Assembly (NCBI GenBank): GCA_017656135.1
Contig: JACDOJ010000013.1
Coordinates: 1 to 34,728, forward strand
Origin: Bacillota bacterium
GTDB taxonomy: Bacteria > Bacillota > UBA5301
DNA length: 34,728 nucleotides
Reading direction: 5' to 3'
The first letter of the stretch is position 1. Each line of letters begins with the position of its first letter. This document shows, in pieces, positions 5,495-26,479 of this stretch. The translations under genes and the position numbers were made by a program. Under the pieces are notes generated by a model. That model was not told the DNA's origin and searched no databases. It was given only the letters and a program-made list of their open reading frames with translations.

Positions 5495-8127
5495 AGACAT
5501 GGCATGCTTATCCGGTGGAAAGGGTCTTCCAAGAGTTGGGGATTTCGCCGGAGGTCGGACTCACTCTAGAGCAAGTCCAAGAGCGCCAGAGACAGTACGG
5601 AGTTAACGAGTTAAAGGAGGCACCGCCGCGCTCTCTCTGGATTATGCTGGTGGAGCAGTTTACTGACTACCTGATTTTAATCCTCATCGGTGCTGCCTTG
5701 GTTTCCGCCTTTTTAGGAGAAATCCAGGACAGTGTGGTAATTATGATTATCGTGCTGATCAACGCCCTGCTCAGTGTGATTCAAGAGCGAAAAGCCGAAA
5801 ATGCCCTGGCTGCCTTAAAGGCCATGTCCGCACCTCAGGCCACAGTGAAACGAGGTGGCCGAATCCAGGAGATCCCTGCCAATCAGCTGGTTCCCGGGGA
5901 TATTATCTTTTTTGAGGCCGGAAAATATATCCCTGCCGATGCCCGGATTATCCACAGTGCCAATCTTCAGGTTCAAGAGGCGGCGCTAACCGGTGAATCG
6001 GTGCCGGTTGAGAAGACCACTGAACCGGTCCAGGCCGAGGCAGGGCTGGGGGACCGTACCAATATGGTCTTTATGGGCACTGTGGTTTCCTACGGTCGTG
6101 GCAGCGCAGTGGTAACCGGGACCGGGATGGAGACCGAGATCGGGAAGATCGCCGGGATGCTTCAAGAGGTGGAGACGGAGAGCACCCCCCTCCAGAGACG
6201 CCTGGATTCTTTCGGCAAACGCCTTGGACAGGCTATTCTGGGGATCGTGGTCTTCATCTTCATCGTAGGTGTTGTCAGAGGGTTTCCGGCCTTTGAGATG
6301 TTCATGACTGCGGTTAGTTTGGCGGTGGCGGCGATCCCAGAGGGGCTGCCGGCCATTGTCACCATCGTCTTGGCTTTAGGAGTTCAGAGAATGAGTATAC
6401 GCAATGCCATCATCCGGCGCCTCCCTGCTGTGGAAACCCTGGGGGCGGCTACGGTGATCTGCTCGGATAAGACCGGTACCCTGACCATGAACGACATGAC
6501 CGTACGCCAGCTGGTGGCCGGCCTCGAAAAAATCCCGTTGGACGAGGCGGATTTGACCGATTCCGGGCACCGTCTGCTCCTGGAGGCGGGTATGCTTTGC
6601 AATGACTCTGAGCCAGAGGAGGGCGGACGCTTCATCGGAGACCCCACAGAAACGGCTTTAGCCGCTGCCGGGGTCAAAGCGGGTCTGGATTTCCGGGAGC
6701 TTAAGGAGAAGCACCCCCGGCTTAAGGAGATACCCTTTGACTCAGAGCGGAAAAGGATGACCACTGTCCACCGCTGGCCGGAGGAGGAACTGTCGGCGGT
6801 GGTCAAAGGGGCCCCTGACACCGTCCTTCCCCACTGCACTCGGATTTATGATTCTGGAGAGGTTAGAGAGCTGACCCAGGCAGACCGGGAGAAAATCCAG
6901 GCCCTCAATGAGGAAATGGCCGGCCAGGCTTTGCGGGTTCTAGCCGTGGCTTACCGGCCGGATATCGACCCGGAGAGGGACGACTTAGAAGAGGATCTAA
7001 TCTACCTCGGTCTTCAGGGTATGATTGACCCGCCAAGGCCTGAGGCCCTGGAAGCGGTTAAGGTGGCCCAGAGAGCTGGGATCCGGACGATCATGATAAC
7101 CGGGGATCACCGCAGAACCGCCATGGCTATCGCCGATGAGCTGGGTATACTCAAAGGGCAGGAGATTGTTACCGGAGCCCAGTTGGAGGAGATGAGCGAT
7201 GAGGAGCTCGCCTCCCGGATTGATGGCATCAGTGTCTTTGCCCGGGTGGCTCCCCAACACAAGGTGCGAATTGTCAAGGCCCTCAAGAGCAGAGGAGAGA
7301 TTGTGGCCATGACCGGTGACGGAGTTAATGACGGTCCGGCTTTGAAGCACGCCGACATCGGTGCGGCCATGGGGAAAGTCGGCACCGATGTAGCCAAAGA
7401 GGCTTCAGACATGGTCTTGGCTGATGATAACTTCGCAACTATTGTGGCTGCGGTCAAAGAGGGACGGGTGATTTTTGAGAATATTCGCAAGGCCATTTAC
7501 TTTCTCTTGGCCTGCAACGCCGGAGAGGTCCTGTCCATTTTTGCCCCCATCATGTTGGGTTGGCGAGCGGTTCCCCTTTTGCCCATTCAAATTCTCTGGA
7601 TCAATTTGATCACCGACAGTTTCCCGGCCCTGGCCCTGGGAGTGGAACCTGCAGAGGATGGGTTGATGGAACGGCCTCCCAGGCCGGTTTCCGAAGGGCT
7701 ATTCAGGCCTGGTACCGGGTTCTTCCTGGGCCTGGCCGGAGTTTTCATCGGCGGCATTACCCTGGTGGCCTATTTCTCAGGTCTGAAGGACAGTTTGCTT
7801 GCCGCTCGGAGCATGGCCTTTGCCACTCTCTCCCTGGCCCAGCTCTTCTTCGTCTTCAACTTCCGGTCGTTGACCCAGCCCTTGACTGAGGTCGGACTTT
7901 TTGGCAACCCTAAACTGGTGTTGGGAGTAGGGGTTTCCATATTGCTTCAACTGATTGTCTTTATCCTGCCTCCCTTGAGGGAGATCTTTGGCCTTACGCT
8001 GCTCTCACCAGGTGAGGTGTGGACGGTGGTTTTTTTGGCAGGTGCGACCCTTCTCTTCGGCGAACTTGCTAAGAGGCTTTTGGTGATGAAACCTTCAGAG
8101 TATCTTCACAAGTCTCCGGTAAAGTAG
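5491..8127 (+). CDS. P-type Ca2+-transporting ATPase (PacL/SERCA-like, P2A)
   Basis: An 878-residue cation pump. In order: N-terminal actuator helices, actuator loop AALTGESVPVEK, M4 AIPEGLPAIV, the phosphorylation site DKTGTLT (Asp326), the nucleotide domain with KGAPD, the hinge TGDGVND (608-614), and six C-terminal helices. Of the SERCA Ca2+ ligands I can match PEGL (Glu309), NAGEV (Asn768, Glu771) and NLITD (Asn796, Thr799, Asp800). The M8 Glu908 position reads Gln (FATLSLAQLF), as in plasma-membrane pumps, which suggests one Ca2+ per cycle. It would export Ca2+, possibly Mn2+. The GTG start overlaps the endonuclease stop (GTGA). The response-regulator gene follows after 28 bases, which suggests co-transcription. 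Confidence 0.93.
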   Translation: MKTWHAYPVERVFQELGISPEVGLTLEQVQERQRQYGVNELKEAPPRSLWIMLVEQFTDYLILILIGAALVSAFLGEIQDSVVIMIIVLINALLSVIQERKAENALAALKAMSAPQATVKRGGRIQEIPANQLVPGDIIFFEAGKYIPADARIIHSANLQVQEAALTGESVPVEKTTEPVQAEAGLGDRTNMVFMGTVVSYGRGSAVVTGTGMETEIGKIAGMLQEVETESTPLQRRLDSFGKRLGQAILGIVVFIFIVGVVRGFPAFEMFMTAVSLAVAAIPEGLPAIVTIVLALGVQRMSIRNAIIRRLPAVETLGAATVICSDKTGTLTMNDMTVRQLVAGLEKIPLDEADLTDSGHRLLLEAGMLCNDSEPEEGGRFIGDPTETALAAAGVKAGLDFRELKEKHPRLKEIPFDSERKRMTTVHRWPEEELSAVVKGAPDTVLPHCTRIYDSGEVRELTQADREKIQALNEEMAGQALRVLAVAYRPDIDPERDDLEEDLIYLGLQGMIDPPRPEALEAVKVAQRAGIRTIMITGDHRRTAMAIADELGILKGQEIVTGAQLEEMSDEELASRIDGISVFARVAPQHKVRIVKALKSRGEIVAMTGDGVNDGPALKHADIGAAMGKVGTDVAKEASDMVLADDNFATIVAAVKEGRVIFENIRKAIYFLLACNAGEVLSIFAPIMLGWRAVPLLPIQILWINLITDSFPALALGVEPAEDGLMERPPRPVSEGLFRPGTGFFLGLAGVFIGGITLVAYFSGLKDSLLAARSMAFATLSLAQLFFVFNFRSLTQPLTEVGLFGNPKLVLGVGVSILLQLIVFILPPLREIFGLTLLSPGEVWTVVFLAGATLLFGELAKRLLVMKPSEYLHKSPVK

Positions 8128-8155: not shown

Positions 8156-8854
8156 ATGCCCTGTAAAGTCCTGGTGGTAGATGACGAAAAGAAAATTACC
8201 GAGGTGCTTAAAGCCTACCTCGAGAGCGAGGGCTACAGCGTTATTACAGCCTACACCGGCCTGGAGGCTCTGGATAAAGTGGCCTCAGAAGACCCGGATT
8301 TGATCATCTTGGACCTGATGCTCCCGGAGCTTTCCGGCGAGGAAGTCTGCGGGCGCCTTCGGGAGTTCAGTGAGGTGCCGATCATCATGTTGACCGCTAA
8401 GACCAGCGAAAGCGATCGCATCGGTGGCCTCAACTTAGGGGCTGACGATTACGTGATTAAGCCCTTCAGCCCTCGGGAGGTAGTGGCCAGGGTCAAAGCT
8501 GTCCTGCGCCGCACCGCTAAAACCAGATGCAGAGGGGGCAGGTTGAGTTTCAAGAACAAAGATTTGGAGATCGATTTGAACGGCCATGAAGTTTACAAAC
8601 GGGGAGAGCGGGTGAATCTCACCCCCACAGAATTTAAACTCTTGACTCTTCTGGCCCAGTCTCCAGGGCAGGTTTTCTCCCGGTCCGTTCTAACCGAGCG
8701 CCTTCAGGGCTACGATTACGAGGGGTACGACCGGACCATCGACGTTCACGTCAAGAACTTGCGCAAAAAGGTGGAGGATAACAGCCAGAAGCCTGAATAC
8801 ATCCTGACGGTCTACGGTGTCGGGTATAAGTTCGGAGTTGATCCCGATGAGTAA
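8156..8854 (+). CDS. OmpR/PhoB-type response regulator
   Basis: A 232-residue transcription factor. The receiver domain (residues 1-120) has the acidic pair Asp9-Asp10, phospho-acceptor Asp53 (LIILDLMLP), Thr in MLTAK and Lys in VIKPFSP. The C-terminal winged helix (about 130-230) has LTPTEFKLLTLLAQ and the recognition region DRTIDVHVKNLRKKVE, ending YGVGYKF, which is typical of PhoB/PhoP-like proteins. It overlaps the kinase gene by eight bases. The phased TTCACA-like repeats just after the kinase gene are of the sort such regulators bind as head-to-tail dimers, so local control is likely. The exact signal is unknown. Confidence 0.95.
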   Translation: MPCKVLVVDDEKKITEVLKAYLESEGYSVITAYTGLEALDKVASEDPDLIILDLMLPELSGEEVCGRLREFSEVPIIMLTAKTSESDRIGGLNLGADDYVIKPFSPREVVARVKAVLRRTAKTRCRGGRLSFKNKDLEIDLNGHEVYKRGERVNLTPTEFKLLTLLAQSPGQVFSRSVLTERLQGYDYEGYDRTIDVHVKNLRKKVEDNSQKPEYILTVYGVGYKFGVDPDE

Positions 8855-10259
8855 GAGACTTAAGGGATTGAAATTAGGCTTGCGGGCCAAAGTCTTACTG
8901 GTCGTCTTAGGAACAGCCCTGCTGACGTCGGGGCTTTTTGCTTTTGGTATTAATGCTGTGCTCAAAGAACGCTTTGACGTCTATTTGGACCGGTCCATCG
9001 AGCAGAGAAACGAGCGTATCGTCGAAGTGATCGAGGAGCTTTACGGCTATTACGGAGACTGGCGGGCGGTGGCGGAGCGCTTGGACAGTGTGGCACCTAC
9101 CATGAACACTGTCATCAGAGTACGGGATACTCGGGGTGTGTTGGTTTTAGACAGCTCCTCCGGTTACATGCACGGCTGGATGATGCGAGAGGGCATGATG
9201 GGCAGAATGTGGATGAGAGGTCGCTCTTGGGGCCAGACACCCGAAAACACTTACTCCTATCCTTTAGAGTACCGGGGGGAGCGCATTGGGACTGCTGAAA
9301 TCACTGTTATCGGAGTGAGCGGACGTCTCACCGAAGAGGACTTGGAGTTCAAAAATACTATCCAGGACGTTGTTACCACAGCATCGGTGACGGCAGGTTT
9401 GTTGGCCCTGGTGCTCAGTCTCATTTTTGCTCACCGGGTAACCAAACCGGTCCTGGACATGACTAAAGTTGCACAGGAGCTGCGGGCTGGAAGGTTCAGC
9501 GCCCGGGCCAGGGTCGGCCGCCAAGACGAATTGGGCACCCTGGCCAGGACTATCAATGACATGGCCAGGCGTCTGGAGGAAGTAGATAGGATGCGCAAGA
9601 AGTTCACTGCCGATGTGGCTCATGAACTGCGTACCCCGGTGACAACCATTCGCAGCTACATCGAGGGTTTTCAAGACGGGGTTTTGGAGCCTACTCCGGA
9701 GCGTTTAAAAGAGCTGGAGGAGGAGACGATAAGGCTTACTGATCTGATCACTGATCTACAGAGCCTGACCATGGTTGAGAGCGGCCGTTTAAAACCGGAG
9801 CTGACCTCTTTTGATTTAGCGGCTGAGATCAGAGGTTTGGTTCAGCGGATGACCCCTCTTTTTGCGGAAAAGGAGATCGCTTTCAGGTGGGACTTACCTG
9901 AGCGGTTGGTGGTCCAGGCCGACCGTAAGCTGCTTCTCAGGGCAGTGGGGAACTTGGTGAACAACGCCTTGAAGTACACTGACCCCGGCGGTGAGGTTAC
10001 TGTCCAGGCCAGGTTCCACGGCAAAGAGGTGGAGATTTCAGTGGCCGACACTGGCATCGGGATTCATGAGAAGGACTTGCCCTACGTTTTTGACCGGTTC
10101 TACCGGGCGGATCCCTCCCGGGCCAGGAGCACCGGAGGTAGCGGCATCGGACTCTCTCTGGTCAAAGAGATTGCCGAAGTCCACGGCGGACGGGTTTCTG
10201 TGGAAAGCGCCCCCGGTCAGGGGAGCGTGTTTACCCTGGTGATTCCCGCTAAAAAGTAA
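8847..10259 (+). CDS. Sensor histidine kinase with a methionine-rich sensor loop
   Basis: A 470-residue membrane kinase paired with the preceding regulator. Layout: TM1 about residues 15-38, extracytoplasmic sensor about 39-175, TM2 about 178-198, HAMP about 199-250, H-box FTADVAHELRTP (His259), N-box NLVNNALKY, then DTGIGI and GGSGIGLSLV ATP-binding boxes. ATG 8847 follows GGAG by nine bases, so the extra residues of the longer reading frame are not used. The sensor contains YMHGWMMREGMMGRMWM (107-123), with seven Met plus a His in 17 residues. This recalls Cu(I)/Ag(I)-binding Met motifs, but metal sensing is only an inference. Overall architecture is PhoR/BaeS-like. Confidence 0.94.
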   Translation: MSKRLKGLKLGLRAKVLLVVLGTALLTSGLFAFGINAVLKERFDVYLDRSIEQRNERIVEVIEELYGYYGDWRAVAERLDSVAPTMNTVIRVRDTRGVLVLDSSSGYMHGWMMREGMMGRMWMRGRSWGQTPENTYSYPLEYRGERIGTAEITVIGVSGRLTEEDLEFKNTIQDVVTTASVTAGLLALVLSLIFAHRVTKPVLDMTKVAQELRAGRFSARARVGRQDELGTLARTINDMARRLEEVDRMRKKFTADVAHELRTPVTTIRSYIEGFQDGVLEPTPERLKELEEETIRLTDLITDLQSLTMVESGRLKPELTSFDLAAEIRGLVQRMTPLFAEKEIAFRWDLPERLVVQADRKLLLRAVGNLVNNALKYTDPGGEVTVQARFHGKEVEISVADTGIGIHEKDLPYVFDRFYRADPSRARSTGGSGIGLSLVKEIAEVHGGRVSVESAPGQGSVFTLVIPAKK

Positions 10260-10261
10260 TC

Positions 10262-10316
10262 TTCACAACATCTTTACAACCAGCTTCACAATCTCTTCAC
10301 AGCTGCCGGTTATACT
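10262..10316 (+). promoter_or_regulatory. Promoter with four phased TTCACA-like repeats (PhoP/OmpR-type operator)
   Basis: TTCACA at 10262, TTTACA at 10273, TTCACA at 10285 and TTCACA at 10296 are spaced 11, 12 and 11 bases, about one helical turn. A -10 hexamer TATACT lies at 10311-10316. No good -35 hexamer exists; its place is taken by repeats three and four. This is the arrangement of PhoP-type activation (TT-x-ACA repeats with about five-base spacers). The array begins two bases after the kinase stop and drives the secreted-protein gene. Confidence 0.75.
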
Positions 10317-10349
10317 GAAGGCACAAAAACAAAGGAGGTTGTGAAACGG

Positions 10350-10745
10350 ATGAAAAAAGTGTTGGTAATGGCTTTGACCGTAGTTTTGGCTCTTGGTGTC
10401 GTGGTTCCGGCTTTCGCCTCTGAGAATGGTGATGCTCTGGTCAAGGCATACACCCAGAGGCTCGAGGCTCAGAAGGAGTACATCGACGCCTTGGTTGAGG
10501 CCGGTCAGTTGACCCAGGCTCAAGCCGATCTGATCAAGAAGAACATCGACATTCGCATCGAGTGGATCAACTCCGATGAGTTCGATCCTACCTACACCGC
10601 TCCCGGCTTTTGGGGTTGGGGTCGCCGCGGTGGTCGTTTTGCCGGTCCGATGAGGGGATTCGGCCCTATGATGGGCGGTTTCGGCCCCGGTTTTTGTGGC
10701 GGGGCCTGCTTCGGATACGGTGCTTTTCCCGCGCCGGTTCGGTAA
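10350..10745 (+). CDS. Secreted DUF2680-like small protein with Gly/Met/Cys-rich tail
   Basis: A 131-residue exported protein. Residues 1-24 are a signal peptide (KKVLVMALTVVLALG, cleavage near AFAS). Residues about 26-75 are a helical segment, YTQRLEAQKEYIDALVEAG then LTQAQADLIKKNID, resembling the DUF2680 helical repeat of Firmicute secreted proteins. The tail is extraordinary in composition: Gly, Phe, Trp and Arg, then GPMMGG and GFCGGACFG. ATG 10350 is chosen; the upstream GTG 10341 sits almost on top of the AAAGGAGG ribosome site. It is governed by the TTCACA-repeat promoter and followed by a strong terminator. The role is unknown; a target or accessory of the adjacent two-component system is likely. 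Confidence 0.8.
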   Translation: MKKVLVMALTVVLALGVVVPAFASENGDALVKAYTQRLEAQKEYIDALVEAGQLTQAQADLIKKNIDIRIEWINSDEFDPTYTAPGFWGWGRRGGRFAGPMRGFGPMMGGFGPGFCGGACFGYGAFPAPVR

Positions 10746-10762
10746 TCGAATACCAGTCTTCG

Positions 10763-10797
10763 CCACCCACCTTTCCGCCGAGGTGGGTGGTTTCATT
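10763..10797 (+). terminator. Intrinsic terminator after the secreted-protein gene
   Basis: CCACCCACCT (10763-10772) and AGGTGGGTGG (10781-10790) form a perfect 10-bp stem with an eight-base loop, followed by TTTCATTT. The U-tract is interrupted, so some read-through into the phosphate-symporter gene is possible. Confidence 0.85.
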
Positions 10798-10875: not shown

Positions 10876-12504
10876 ATGGATACAGTCAAAATGATCTTCG
10901 ACTTTCTTGGCGGACTTGGTGTATTTCTTTTCGGCATGCGAGTGATGGGTGACGGCCTGCAGAAAGTGGCCGGGGATCGGATGCGGAGAGTGTTGGAGGT
11001 CCTGACTACCACAGCTTTCCGGGGCGTCATCGTCGGTGCGCTGGTTACAGCAATTATCCAGAGCAGCAGTGCTACCACGGTTATGCTGGTGGGCTTTGTG
11101 AATGCTGGGCTGATGACCTTGAAACAGGCCTTTGGGGTCATCATGGGAGCCAACATCGGTACCACTATGACCGCCCAGCTCATAGCCTTCAAGATCACCA
11201 AACTGGCCCTGGCCTTTGTCGGGGTCGGTTTTCTCATCAACCTTTTTGGCCGGCGCAAACTGCACAAGTATTTCGGACTGGTTCTCTTAGGCCTGGGTCT
11301 GCTCTTCATGGGTCTGGACTTTATGAGCGGGGCGATGAAACCCCTGCGGGGGAGCCAAGCTTTCATTGACCTTATGGCGACCTTCGGCAAGTATCCGCTG
11401 CTCGGGGTTTTGATAGGAGCCGCAATGACCAGCCTCATCCAGAGCAGCAGTGCCACAATCGCTATGCTCATGGCTGTGGCCAGTCAAGGTCTGATCTCTT
11501 TCGATGCCGCTTTGCCCATTCTCTTCGGTGATAACATCGGGACCTGTATTACGGCGGCTCTGGCCAGTATCGGGGTGAGTAAGGCAGCCAAGCGTACGGC
11601 GCTGGCCCATGTTCTATTCAATGTTTTCGGAGCGGCTCTCTTCATCCTCTTACTCCCTTGGTTTAAATCCTTCGTTCTGGCCATCTCCGGTGATGCTGAC
11701 GTTACTCGGCTCATCGCCAATGCCCACACCTCGTTTAACGTAATGAATACAATGATCTGGCTGTTTATGGTCAACTTGATGGTTAAGATAGTAACCAGGG
11801 TCATTCCTGGAGCTGAGGGTGAAATCTCCGGCCCGGTTTACCTGGACAAACACCTGTACAACACTCCTTCGGTAGCCTTGGGCCAGGCCACCAGGGAGTT
11901 GGTGAACATGGCTTCCTTAGCTTCTGAGATGATGGAGAAGGCTGAGACAGCCGTGGCTAATAAGGATATGAAGGCAGTCCAACGCATTTACGAGTTGGAG
12001 AATATGGTCAATCACTTCCAAAAAGAGATTACCATCTACCTGACTGAGCTTTCCCAAGGTTCTTTGACGGAGGAACAATCTGACCGCTTAACCAACCTGA
12101 TGCACGTGGTTAACGACATCGAACGGGTCGGAGACCACCTGGAAAACATCGCTGAATTGGCAGAGTTCAGGGTGGATTCCCGAATCGAGTTCTCCCAGCA
12201 GGCCTACCAGGAGCTAGCCGAGATCTTCACTTTGGTGAAAGGCACCTTCTCCGAGACCATCAAGGCTTTGGAAACCGATGATTATAACTTGGCACGCTCG
12301 GTTTTAGAGCGGGAGAATGAGACCGATGAGATGGAGAGGGAGCTCAGAAACAACCATATCTTCCGGCTCAATGAAGGATCGTGTATACCGAAAGCAGGTA
12401 TTATTTATCTGGACATTCTCAGCAACTTAGAGCGGGTTTCAGACCATGCTGCCAACATTGCCCAAGCGGTTTTGGACCGTGAAGGGGAAGTCGTTCTAAT
12501 CTGA
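10876..12504 (+). CDS. Na+/phosphate symporter with C-terminal PhoU-like domain (NptA/YjbB type)
   Basis: A 542-residue type II Na+/Pi cotransporter. The membrane part (1-315) holds two inverted-repeat copies of the signature: QSSSATT at Gln62 and QSSSAT at Gln189, each followed by GANIGTT or GDNIGTC. Residues about 335-540 form a helical PhoU-like domain containing two ERVGDH/ERVSDH metal-binding motifs (VVNDIERVGDHLENIAE; NLERVSDHAANIAQ). Family members move inorganic phosphate, in or out depending on gradients, and the PhoU part probably gates this. GAGGT precedes the ATG. It lies downstream of a PhoB-like regulator and operator array, which agrees with phosphate-linked control but does not prove it. 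Confidence 0.93.
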   Translation: MDTVKMIFDFLGGLGVFLFGMRVMGDGLQKVAGDRMRRVLEVLTTTAFRGVIVGALVTAIIQSSSATTVMLVGFVNAGLMTLKQAFGVIMGANIGTTMTAQLIAFKITKLALAFVGVGFLINLFGRRKLHKYFGLVLLGLGLLFMGLDFMSGAMKPLRGSQAFIDLMATFGKYPLLGVLIGAAMTSLIQSSSATIAMLMAVASQGLISFDAALPILFGDNIGTCITAALASIGVSKAAKRTALAHVLFNVFGAALFILLLPWFKSFVLAISGDADVTRLIANAHTSFNVMNTMIWLFMVNLMVKIVTRVIPGAEGEISGPVYLDKHLYNTPSVALGQATRELVNMASLASEMMEKAETAVANKDMKAVQRIYELENMVNHFQKEITIYLTELSQGSLTEEQSDRLTNLMHVVNDIERVGDHLENIAELAEFRVDSRIEFSQQAYQELAEIFTLVKGTFSETIKALETDDYNLARSVLERENETDEMERELRNNHIFRLNEGSCIPKAGIIYLDILSNLERVSDHAANIAQAVLDREGEVVLI

Positions 12505-24969: not shown

Positions 24970-24985
24970 AACGGAGGTGCTTTCA

Positions 24986-26479
24986 GTGCGGGTATTGCTG
25001 GCCGATGACAGTATGACCATCTTGAAGGTGGTGGGGTCTCTCTTAGAAAGCGAGGGATTTGAAGTTATTACTGCCTCAGACGGCGTAGAAGCGGCTATAA
25101 AGGCCTTCTCGGAGCGTCCAGACCTTATCCTTTTGGATGTTACCATGCCCAAGATGAATGGGTACCAGGTCTGCCGTCTGCTCAAAAACGAGCCGGCCAC
25201 CCAAGCCATCCCTATCATCATTTTGACCTCTAAAGACCAGCCCCGGGAGAAGTTCTGGGGCTATCAGACCGGGGCCGACAAGTACGTCACCAAAGGTTTT
25301 GACCAGGGCCCGCTCCTGGCGGCGGTAAAGGAGCTCACCGTCGGAAGAGCTGAGGCCGCGGCCGGCTTGGCTGAACCGAGCGGAGACCTGATTGCCGATG
25401 AATTCGATATTTTGGCCCGTTCCAACGATCTTTTAGACGCCAAGCTTTTTGAAGCCACCATCATCAATGAGATCGGTAAGCTGGCCACCAATTTGAGTAC
25501 CTTTCAGGAGACGGTTTCTGGGTTATTTGACCTTATGGCCAACTTAGGCACCTTTTCCGCCGGCGTGCTGGCCTTCTCCCATGGGGAAGAGGGCCTGATG
25601 CTGGTGAAGGTGCTGCTTAACGTGGACAAGGGGTATCTTCAGGATTATCGGCACTATCTGGAGGCCAAGATTAAGAGAGAGCACCCAGAGAGCATTCCCC
25701 CGGCCGGATACAGCTGGGAGGTCCTTGATAGGGCCAAGACAGGGATCATCCCCGATACCGGTGAAGCCGAGTTCGATCCCCAGGCGACCTGCACGGTTTT
25801 TCTTCAATCCAAAGGCAAGGTTGTTGGCCTGTTATCAGTGGCCGGTGATAAGAAACGAGCCCTGCGCATGGACCAGAGTTCTCTGGAACTTTTTGGGGTC
25901 CACGGCACAGTGGTAGTGGAAAACGCCTGGCTGTATGAACAGATCCGACAGCTCTCCATCACCGACGGTTTGACCAAGGTCTATAACCGCCGGTACATCG
26001 AAGAGCGCCTTAAGGAAGCGATCCGCCTGAGCAGAAGGCATAAAGCCAGTCTTTCCCTGGTCATGATGGATGTAGATCACTTTAAAAAGGTCAACGATAC
26101 CTATGGCCACCAGGCCGGGGATGATGTTCTTAAACACCTGATGGAGGTCTGCCGGACTAGTACCCGGGCCACCGATATTTTGGGACGGTACGGTGGGGAG
26201 GAGTTCATTCTAGTGCTGCCGGAGACCGATTCTCAAGGCGCTCAGATTGTCGCCGAGCGAATTCGAGCCAAAGTGGAGGCTATGCCTTTCCCGACTTGTG
26301 CCGGACGCATCCCGATCACCATCAGCCTTGGTCTAGCCACCTTCCCCGCCGTATCTATTGATACGGCCGAGGCTTTTATTAAAGCGGCTGACCTGGCCCT
26401 GTACCGGGCCAAGGAGTCCGGCCGGAACCGAGTGGTAGCCTACGATCCCAAAGTTGATGGACTGCCGCAGGAAGAGTAA
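24986..26479 (+). CDS. Response regulator-diguanylate cyclase (REC-GGDEF)
   Basis: A 497-residue protein. Residues 1-122 are a receiver domain (LLADDS, LILLDVTMPKMNGY with the phospho-acceptor Asp, and LTSKD). Residues about 150-325 are a middle region of unassigned fold, with INEIGKLATNLSTFQETVSGL and helical/GAF-like spacing. Residues about 330-490 are a GGDEF domain with GGEEF (403-407) and the inhibitory I-site RATD (394-397). It should make c-di-GMP under phosphorylation control and be subject to product inhibition. GTG 24986 is preferred, because GGAGG lies eight bases upstream and overlaps the alternative GTG 24977. It starts 16 bases after hypE. Confidence 0.93.
   Translation: MRVLLADDSMTILKVVGSLLESEGFEVITASDGVEAAIKAFSERPDLILLDVTMPKMNGYQVCRLLKNEPATQAIPIIILTSKDQPREKFWGYQTGADKYVTKGFDQGPLLAAVKELTVGRAEAAAGLAEPSGDLIADEFDILARSNDLLDAKLFEATIINEIGKLATNLSTFQETVSGLFDLMANLGTFSAGVLAFSHGEEGLMLVKVLLNVDKGYLQDYRHYLEAKIKREHPESIPPAGYSWEVLDRAKTGIIPDTGEAEFDPQATCTVFLQSKGKVVGLLSVAGDKKRALRMDQSSLELFGVHGTVVVENAWLYEQIRQLSITDGLTKVYNRRYIEERLKEAIRLSRRHKASLSLVMMDVDHFKKVNDTYGHQAGDDVLKHLMEVCRTSTRATDILGRYGGEEFILVLPETDSQGAQIVAERIRAKVEAMPFPTCAGRIPITISLGLATFPAVSIDTAEAFIKAADLALYRAKESGRNRVVAYDPKVDGLPQEE

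Follow-up and report, generated by a model that had tools for sequence, protein, structure and literature searches.

Four direct repeats in front of a DUF2680 gene

Between a sensor kinase gene and the gene for a small exported protein in a Bacillota bacterium lie four TTCACA-like hexamers, and these raise the question of which regulator reads them and in response to what. The window (the whole stretch of 34,728 nucleotides that was analyzed; the genes and sites described below between 8094 and 12504 are on its forward strand) comes from a 1.9-Mb genome that is 99.4% complete in 86 contigs. It is probable, taking the full reading together, that the repeats are a new operator of a known class, driven by a two-component system that regulates itself and that tentatively responds to envelope or soft-metal stress. 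The switch looks like one for cell-envelope (possibly metal) stress, rather than phosphate.

All four hexamers are present at the spacings (11-12-11) given in a preliminary description of this DNA. The operator (10262..10301), defined by sequence, pattern counts, and conserved architecture, consists of TTCACA (10262-10267), TTTACA (10273-10278), TTCACA (10285-10290), and TTCACA (10296-10301). The fourth unit is followed by 9 nt (GCTGCCGGT) and then by TATACT (10311..10316), a -10 element recognized by its sequence and by the peak of the same gap in relatives. The operator is noncoding and lies in the 90-nt gap between the stop of the kinase gene at 10259 and the ATG of the DUF2680 gene at 10350. 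With up to three mismatches allowed, the 40-nt pattern matched once in the window and never in 100 shuffles; it matched once in the 1.9-Mb genome, where the reversed pattern, used as a control, had no match.

Units 3 and 4 take up the -35 zone, in agreement with the earlier placement of the repeats ahead of TATACT. No -35 could serve here: at spacers of 16 to 18, no hexamer matched TTGACA at more than one of its six positions, and a sigma-70 scan called no promoter at the operator site. In PhoB promoters, the -35 is likewise replaced by the operator. Two features of direct-repeat operators of the OmpR/PhoB family were found here, head-to-tail half-sites at the 10-11 bp period of the helical turn and a -35 that is replaced at a fixed distance from the -10. 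The four units can be taken as a pair of 11-bp dimer boxes separated by one additional base; at the center the spacing is 12 in the window, versus 11 in aligned relatives.

The DUF2680 gene (10350..10745), with a ribosome-binding site, AAAGGAGGT, evident from the sequence at 10331..10339, is the probable principal target of the operator. Its 131-aa product has a signal peptide, a two-helix core, and a tail containing Gly, Met, and Cys, and it passed the gathering score for DUF2680 (PF10925; 42.7 bits versus a cut-off of 25). A secreted protein had been predicted to belong to the regulon, and this gene, directly behind the operator in an arrangement that is conserved in relatives, probably represents it.

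The period and the distance to the -10 are conserved in the phylum

A lack of conservation in related genomes had been named as an outcome that would count against the repeats; we examined this and found that they are conserved. In genomes G002 (kinase 57% identical) and G005 (41% identical), found in a search of the class for relatives of the kinase, a DUF2680 gene follows the kinase gene and is preceded by four units at 11-11-11 and a 9-nt gap to a -10 of TATATT or TATACT. In G001, the DUF2680 gene is elsewhere in the genome and the four-unit site is kept. Five units, again with a 9-nt gap to the -10, precede a DUF2680 paralogue elsewhere in the window's genome.

The same architecture emerged from a larger sample. 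We searched for PF10925 in 249 genomes of the phylum and found matches in 76 genomes; the upstream regions analyzed are those of 76 DUF2680 genes. This set does not correspond to the 76 genomes, and two weaker paralogues from the window's own genome are among its members. Counting as units TTCAYA-like hexamers with 5/6 matches or better, pairs at 11 nt were found in 48 regions compared to 2.6 in shuffles, and pairs also peaked at 22 and 33 nt. Gaps between a unit and the -10 peaked at 9, 20, 31, and 42 nt. When four units plus a -10 were scored over a grid of periods and gaps, the combination of period 11 and gap 9 was the unique maximum, with 46 of the 76 regions reaching the threshold score of 22. 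That score was reached by 0.07% of shuffles and, elsewhere in these loci, by 0.14% of positions, and at periods of 10, 12, 13, and 14 it was reached by none of the 76 regions. The conserved period and 9-nt gap support the earlier proposal of an OmpR/PhoB-family direct-repeat operator, probably in an activator-dependent promoter, and the rule of four TTCAYA units at 11 bp, 9 nt, and a -10 can serve as a search key for the regulon in unannotated genomes.

We infer that the regulator binds here, and that it activates rather than represses. A repressor that sits at the -35 zone and blocks the promoter until released would be consistent with an operator that overlaps the region polymerase would occupy, but this is very improbable, since an unaided polymerase would find no -35 and the distance to the -10 stays at 9 nt throughout the phylum, as contact with polymerase would predict.

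Two smaller regularities were seen. In the 76 upstream regions, unit pairs were also more frequent than expected at 8 nt, though less markedly so (14 regions versus 2.2 expected). In the aligned sites, GG (often CCGG or CGGT) tends to directly precede the -10, which could reflect contacts with polymerase or the regulator.

An exact-pattern scan of 84,980 species gave 92 matches, and reading of the listed sites found the 9-nt -10 architecture in none of them. The scan therefore says little about this regulon; its matches, many of them in Nitrosomonas, seem to be 11-mers in tandem or repeats that are dispersed. Dispersed elements of TTCACA x4 with similar 11-mer spacers were noted in several genomes of Nitrosomonas and Nitrosospira (TTCACAAAAAGTTCACACTTATTTCACATTTAATTCACA-like; loci L039, L048, L066, L072, L080, L087, L100, and others).

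The adjacent regulator and a second site in its own promoter

The operator adjoins an OmpR/PhoB-type regulator, as the preliminary description had it. The response regulator gene (8156..8854) encodes a receiver and an OmpR/PhoB winged helix (PF00072 and PF00486), and a genome-wide search for Trans_reg_C (PF00486) gave two matches, this regulator and a fragment at contig C1. No other intact regulator of OmpR/PhoB type was detected in the genome and, because the sole other match is a remnant, the window's regulator is the one intact candidate with a suitable fold. The fragment (L254; G000:C1:117631-117732 and flanks) looks like the remnant left by a deletion in an OmpR-type regulator gene, now decayed: the beginning of a receiver runs directly into the last part of a winged helix, beside a broken kinase start.

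A second site, at 8094-8125 and absent from the preliminary description, lies in front of the regulator gene. A pattern search and conserved geometry identified a two-unit operator, TTCAGA-5-TTCACA (8094..8110), inside the 3' end of the upstream P-type ATPase gene, and 9 nt past the second unit, by sequence and geometry, the -10 element of the regulator operon, TAAAGT (8120..8125). The pattern TTCANA-N5-TTCANA-N9-TANANT, with no mismatches, had only two matches in the genome: this site and the DUF2680 operator. The two-unit geometry is kept upstream of the regulator in G001, G002, and G040, and one unit is kept in G005. That the regulator gene has such a site in front of it implies autoregulation, and we propose 8094-8110 as the autoregulatory site.

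It is more doubtful still than repression that a regulator of some other type binds the repeats. Roughly one in four of the DUF2680 genes sampled has no recognizable site and most have no adjacent regulator, a regulator-kinase pair being found within a few kb in about 20 of the 76 DUF2680 loci, and both observations would fit such a regulator. Against it, 11-bp head-to-tail hexamers match the binding of the OmpR/PhoB family, and the adjacent regulator, the only intact one found, has the motif in its own promoter.

The regulator did not fall within the described subfamilies that we compared. It scored 245.7 bits with the YycF equivalog (cut-off 340), 182 with CpxR (cut-off 341), and 226.5 with BaeR (cut-off 380), and by sequence its winged helix is nearest to MtrA and WalR/VicR chains. 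The site of B. subtilis YclJ is a TTCATA-type direct repeat of similar period, and a literature search did not find a YclJ consensus. The PhoP of M. tuberculosis binds as a tandem dimer to direct repeats of TCACA type with an 11-bp period, and binds three or four repeats more tightly (PMC4832192). Its site (TCACAGC, 4-bp spacer) shares the TCACA core and the 11-bp period with the window, whereas the window's regulator belongs to a different subgroup. The WalR box, with the consensus TGTWAH-N5-TGTWAH (PMC9210968), is like the window a direct repeat of hexamer-N5-hexamer, the regulators are related, and an M23/LysM gene is a possible target in the window's genome. The complement of the WalR unit would be DTWACA, whereas position 3 of the window's unit (TTCAYA) is C. 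Neither the box nor a YycF equivalog, by which a WalRK regulon would be recognized, was found.

A 500-aa open reading frame at 24977-26479 of the window has a receiver domain that is 43% identical to that of the regulator.

Candidate sites elsewhere

We scanned the window's own genome with patterns and with a sequence-only model built from 26 sites, the E-values of which are rough. The sites before DUF2680 and its paralogue had been used to train the model and the M23/LysM site had not; matches of the model to the DUF2680 site are therefore no independent confirmation of it, whereas the tests of geometry are independent. The model matched the DUF2680 operator, the site of the paralogue, and, weakly (E = 0.013), a site upstream of a gene for an M23/LysM cell-wall peptidase. 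The earlier prediction of a regulon with further genes elsewhere is supported; in this genome the five-unit paralogue and, more weakly, the M23/LysM gene are candidates. There was no convincing site at a DUF2680-like gene on contig C9 of the same genome (L239), and a site at C1:115993 was dropped because, by eye, it lacks the -10 geometry.

In G003, the model matched units upstream of three genes: four that are near-perfect at a SHOCT gene, three at a DoxX-type gene, and three of weaker fit at an outer-membrane efflux gene. Over 119 genomes, it found sites in 34. We read forty sites away from known DUF2680 genes for their downstream products: the recurring ones were SHOCT proteins (three, or four with G003), HtrA-type PDZ proteases (three, with gene starts 178-290 nt from their sites), LTXXQ/metal-resistance proteins (two), and weak DUF2680 proteins (three). 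Others were DUF2933, MscS, SLH, and polyferredoxin, and many further products were single and unrelated. The sites before HtrA and LTXXQ genes are in other genomes of the phylum, with none of this kind in the window's own genome; the genomes compared are drafts. In distant genomes, it may be paralogous regulators that bind the sites. A model match upstream of dnaA (L276) was discarded, as it looks like DnaA boxes. Small SHOCT membrane proteins recur behind such sites at L265, L341, L373, and L376.

Phosphate is an unlikely signal

Downstream of the DUF2680 gene is a gene (10876..12504) for a Na/Pi symporter with C-terminal PhoU repeats (PF02690 and PF01895), and the preliminary description had placed it in the regulon by read-through and had spoken of activation by PhoP/PhoB-family regulators. 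We found a terminator-like hairpin (10762..10791; 12-bp stem, loop of 6) between the two genes, with an equivalent in G002, which speaks against read-through; neither membership of the symporter in the regulon nor an identity as PhoP/PhoB proper is supported.

A genuine phosphate PhoPR system, in which the repeats would be a Pho box and both DUF2680 and the symporter would respond to phosphate limitation, is improbable, although several observations point toward it. The PhoU-repeat symporter is downstream in the window and in G002 and directly follows the kinase gene in G001. The symporter gene contains the only PhoU matches in the genome, with no stand-alone PhoU found, and the genome has no other intact OmpR/PhoB-type regulator. 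Pho boxes, whether for PhoB of E. coli or for PhoP of Streptomyces (GTTCACC) and B. subtilis, resemble the window's operator in having head-to-tail 11-bp units for tandem binding by OmpR/PhoB-family proteins; those of E. coli and Streptomyces are also 11-bp direct repeats (PMC4415409).

The evidence against phosphate comes from several sides. In addition to the hairpin, which is ahead of the symporter in both the window and G002, G005 and G040 have the two-component system and DUF2680 with no symporter adjoining. G005 and G006 carry an additional PhoU/pst-linked pair, and the pst-linked repeat in G006 is of TTAAC type, in contrast to TTCAYA here. The regulator scored 228.9 bits with the PhoB equivalog TIGR02154, below the cut-off of 296.2. 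The system has no linked pst gene, and its candidate targets differ from those of Pho boxes in being DUF2680 and envelope-type genes, with sites in other genomes ahead of SHOCT, HtrA, and LTXXQ genes. The marks of a Pho regulon (pst and phosphate boxes, PhoU linkage) were thus not found at this operator, and where the phylum has separate PhoU-linked systems, as in G005 and G006, they are distinct from this one.

A methionine-rich sensor and a model for the switch

The kinase gene (8817..10259) encodes a sensor histidine kinase with HAMP, HisKA, and HATPase domains (Pfam) and, from its topology, two membrane segments around an extracytoplasmic sensor of ~139 aa. The sensor has a Met-rich loop, YMHGWMMREGMMGRMWMRG, that contains Met/His. 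Similar loops are found in most DUF2680-linked kinases and not in most other kinases of the class: Met content of the sensor was 4.5% in 17 DUF2680-linked kinases versus 1.9% in 11 others, a control set that includes one kinase (L012) that is itself DUF2680-linked, a contamination in the conservative direction. The tails of DUF2680 proteins are likewise Met/Gly-rich and, together with the Met-rich sensor, make a soft-metal or methionine-oxidation signal plausible. We regard an envelope or soft-metal signal as a tentative assignment, suggested by these compositions.

In the model that we favor, the phosphorylated regulator (8156-8854) would bind head-to-tail, one protomer per 11-bp TTCAYA unit and two dimers in all. 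The promoter-proximal dimer would sit at the -35 position and recruit RNA polymerase to a -10 exactly 9 bp downstream, and the two-unit promoter before the regulator gene would provide positive autoregulation. The kinase would sense something outside the membrane through the domain with the Met-rich loop, and the output would be the exported DUF2680 protein and other envelope proteins. A more specific version is somewhat less likely than the signal assignment itself: a phylum-wide stress regulon in which the Met-rich sensor detects a soft metal, e.g. Cu(I), or methionine oxidation, and in which the main and self-reinforcing output, an exported DUF2680 protein rich in Met and Gly, would bind the ligand that the sensor detects, with possible feedback on the kinase. 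Such a stress regulon has apparently not been described so far and, if real, would provide the first function for the DUF2680 family. The Met-rich sensor suggests which signal to try first.

The logic would be like that of CpxRA-CpxP, BaeSR-Spy, and ZraSR-ZraP, each of which is a two-component system adjoined by a small exported protein that it controls. In Gram-negative bacteria, envelope-stress systems of the Cpx/Bae type typically act on HtrA and Spy/LTXXQ genes. The present system resembles these modules in its pairing with a small exported protein and in a kinase that is nearest to BaeS in NCBIfam (264.7 bits); the HtrA and LTXXQ genes behind sites elsewhere in the phylum would be candidate targets of a similar kind. 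The system differs from them in that the DUF2680 core is not detectably related to ZraP or CpxP and the equivalog cut-offs are missed (500 for BaeS).

DUF2680 is a common exported family of unknown function, and the shared promoter ties it to a specific type of regulator and to a testable regulon. A literature search gave nothing useful on DUF2680 function or yckD regulation. We rejected DUF2680 as a homologue of ZraP/CpxP (LTXXQ), as the ZraP match was lost when the signal peptide and Gly tail were removed. A single-sequence structure model predicts helices at residues 24-50 and 56-73, and a fold search with this low-confidence model gave no match at E <= 0.001. By eye, a motif of the SHOCT proteins (RYARGEIT-type) resembles the DUF2680 core (KYVEAGEIT).
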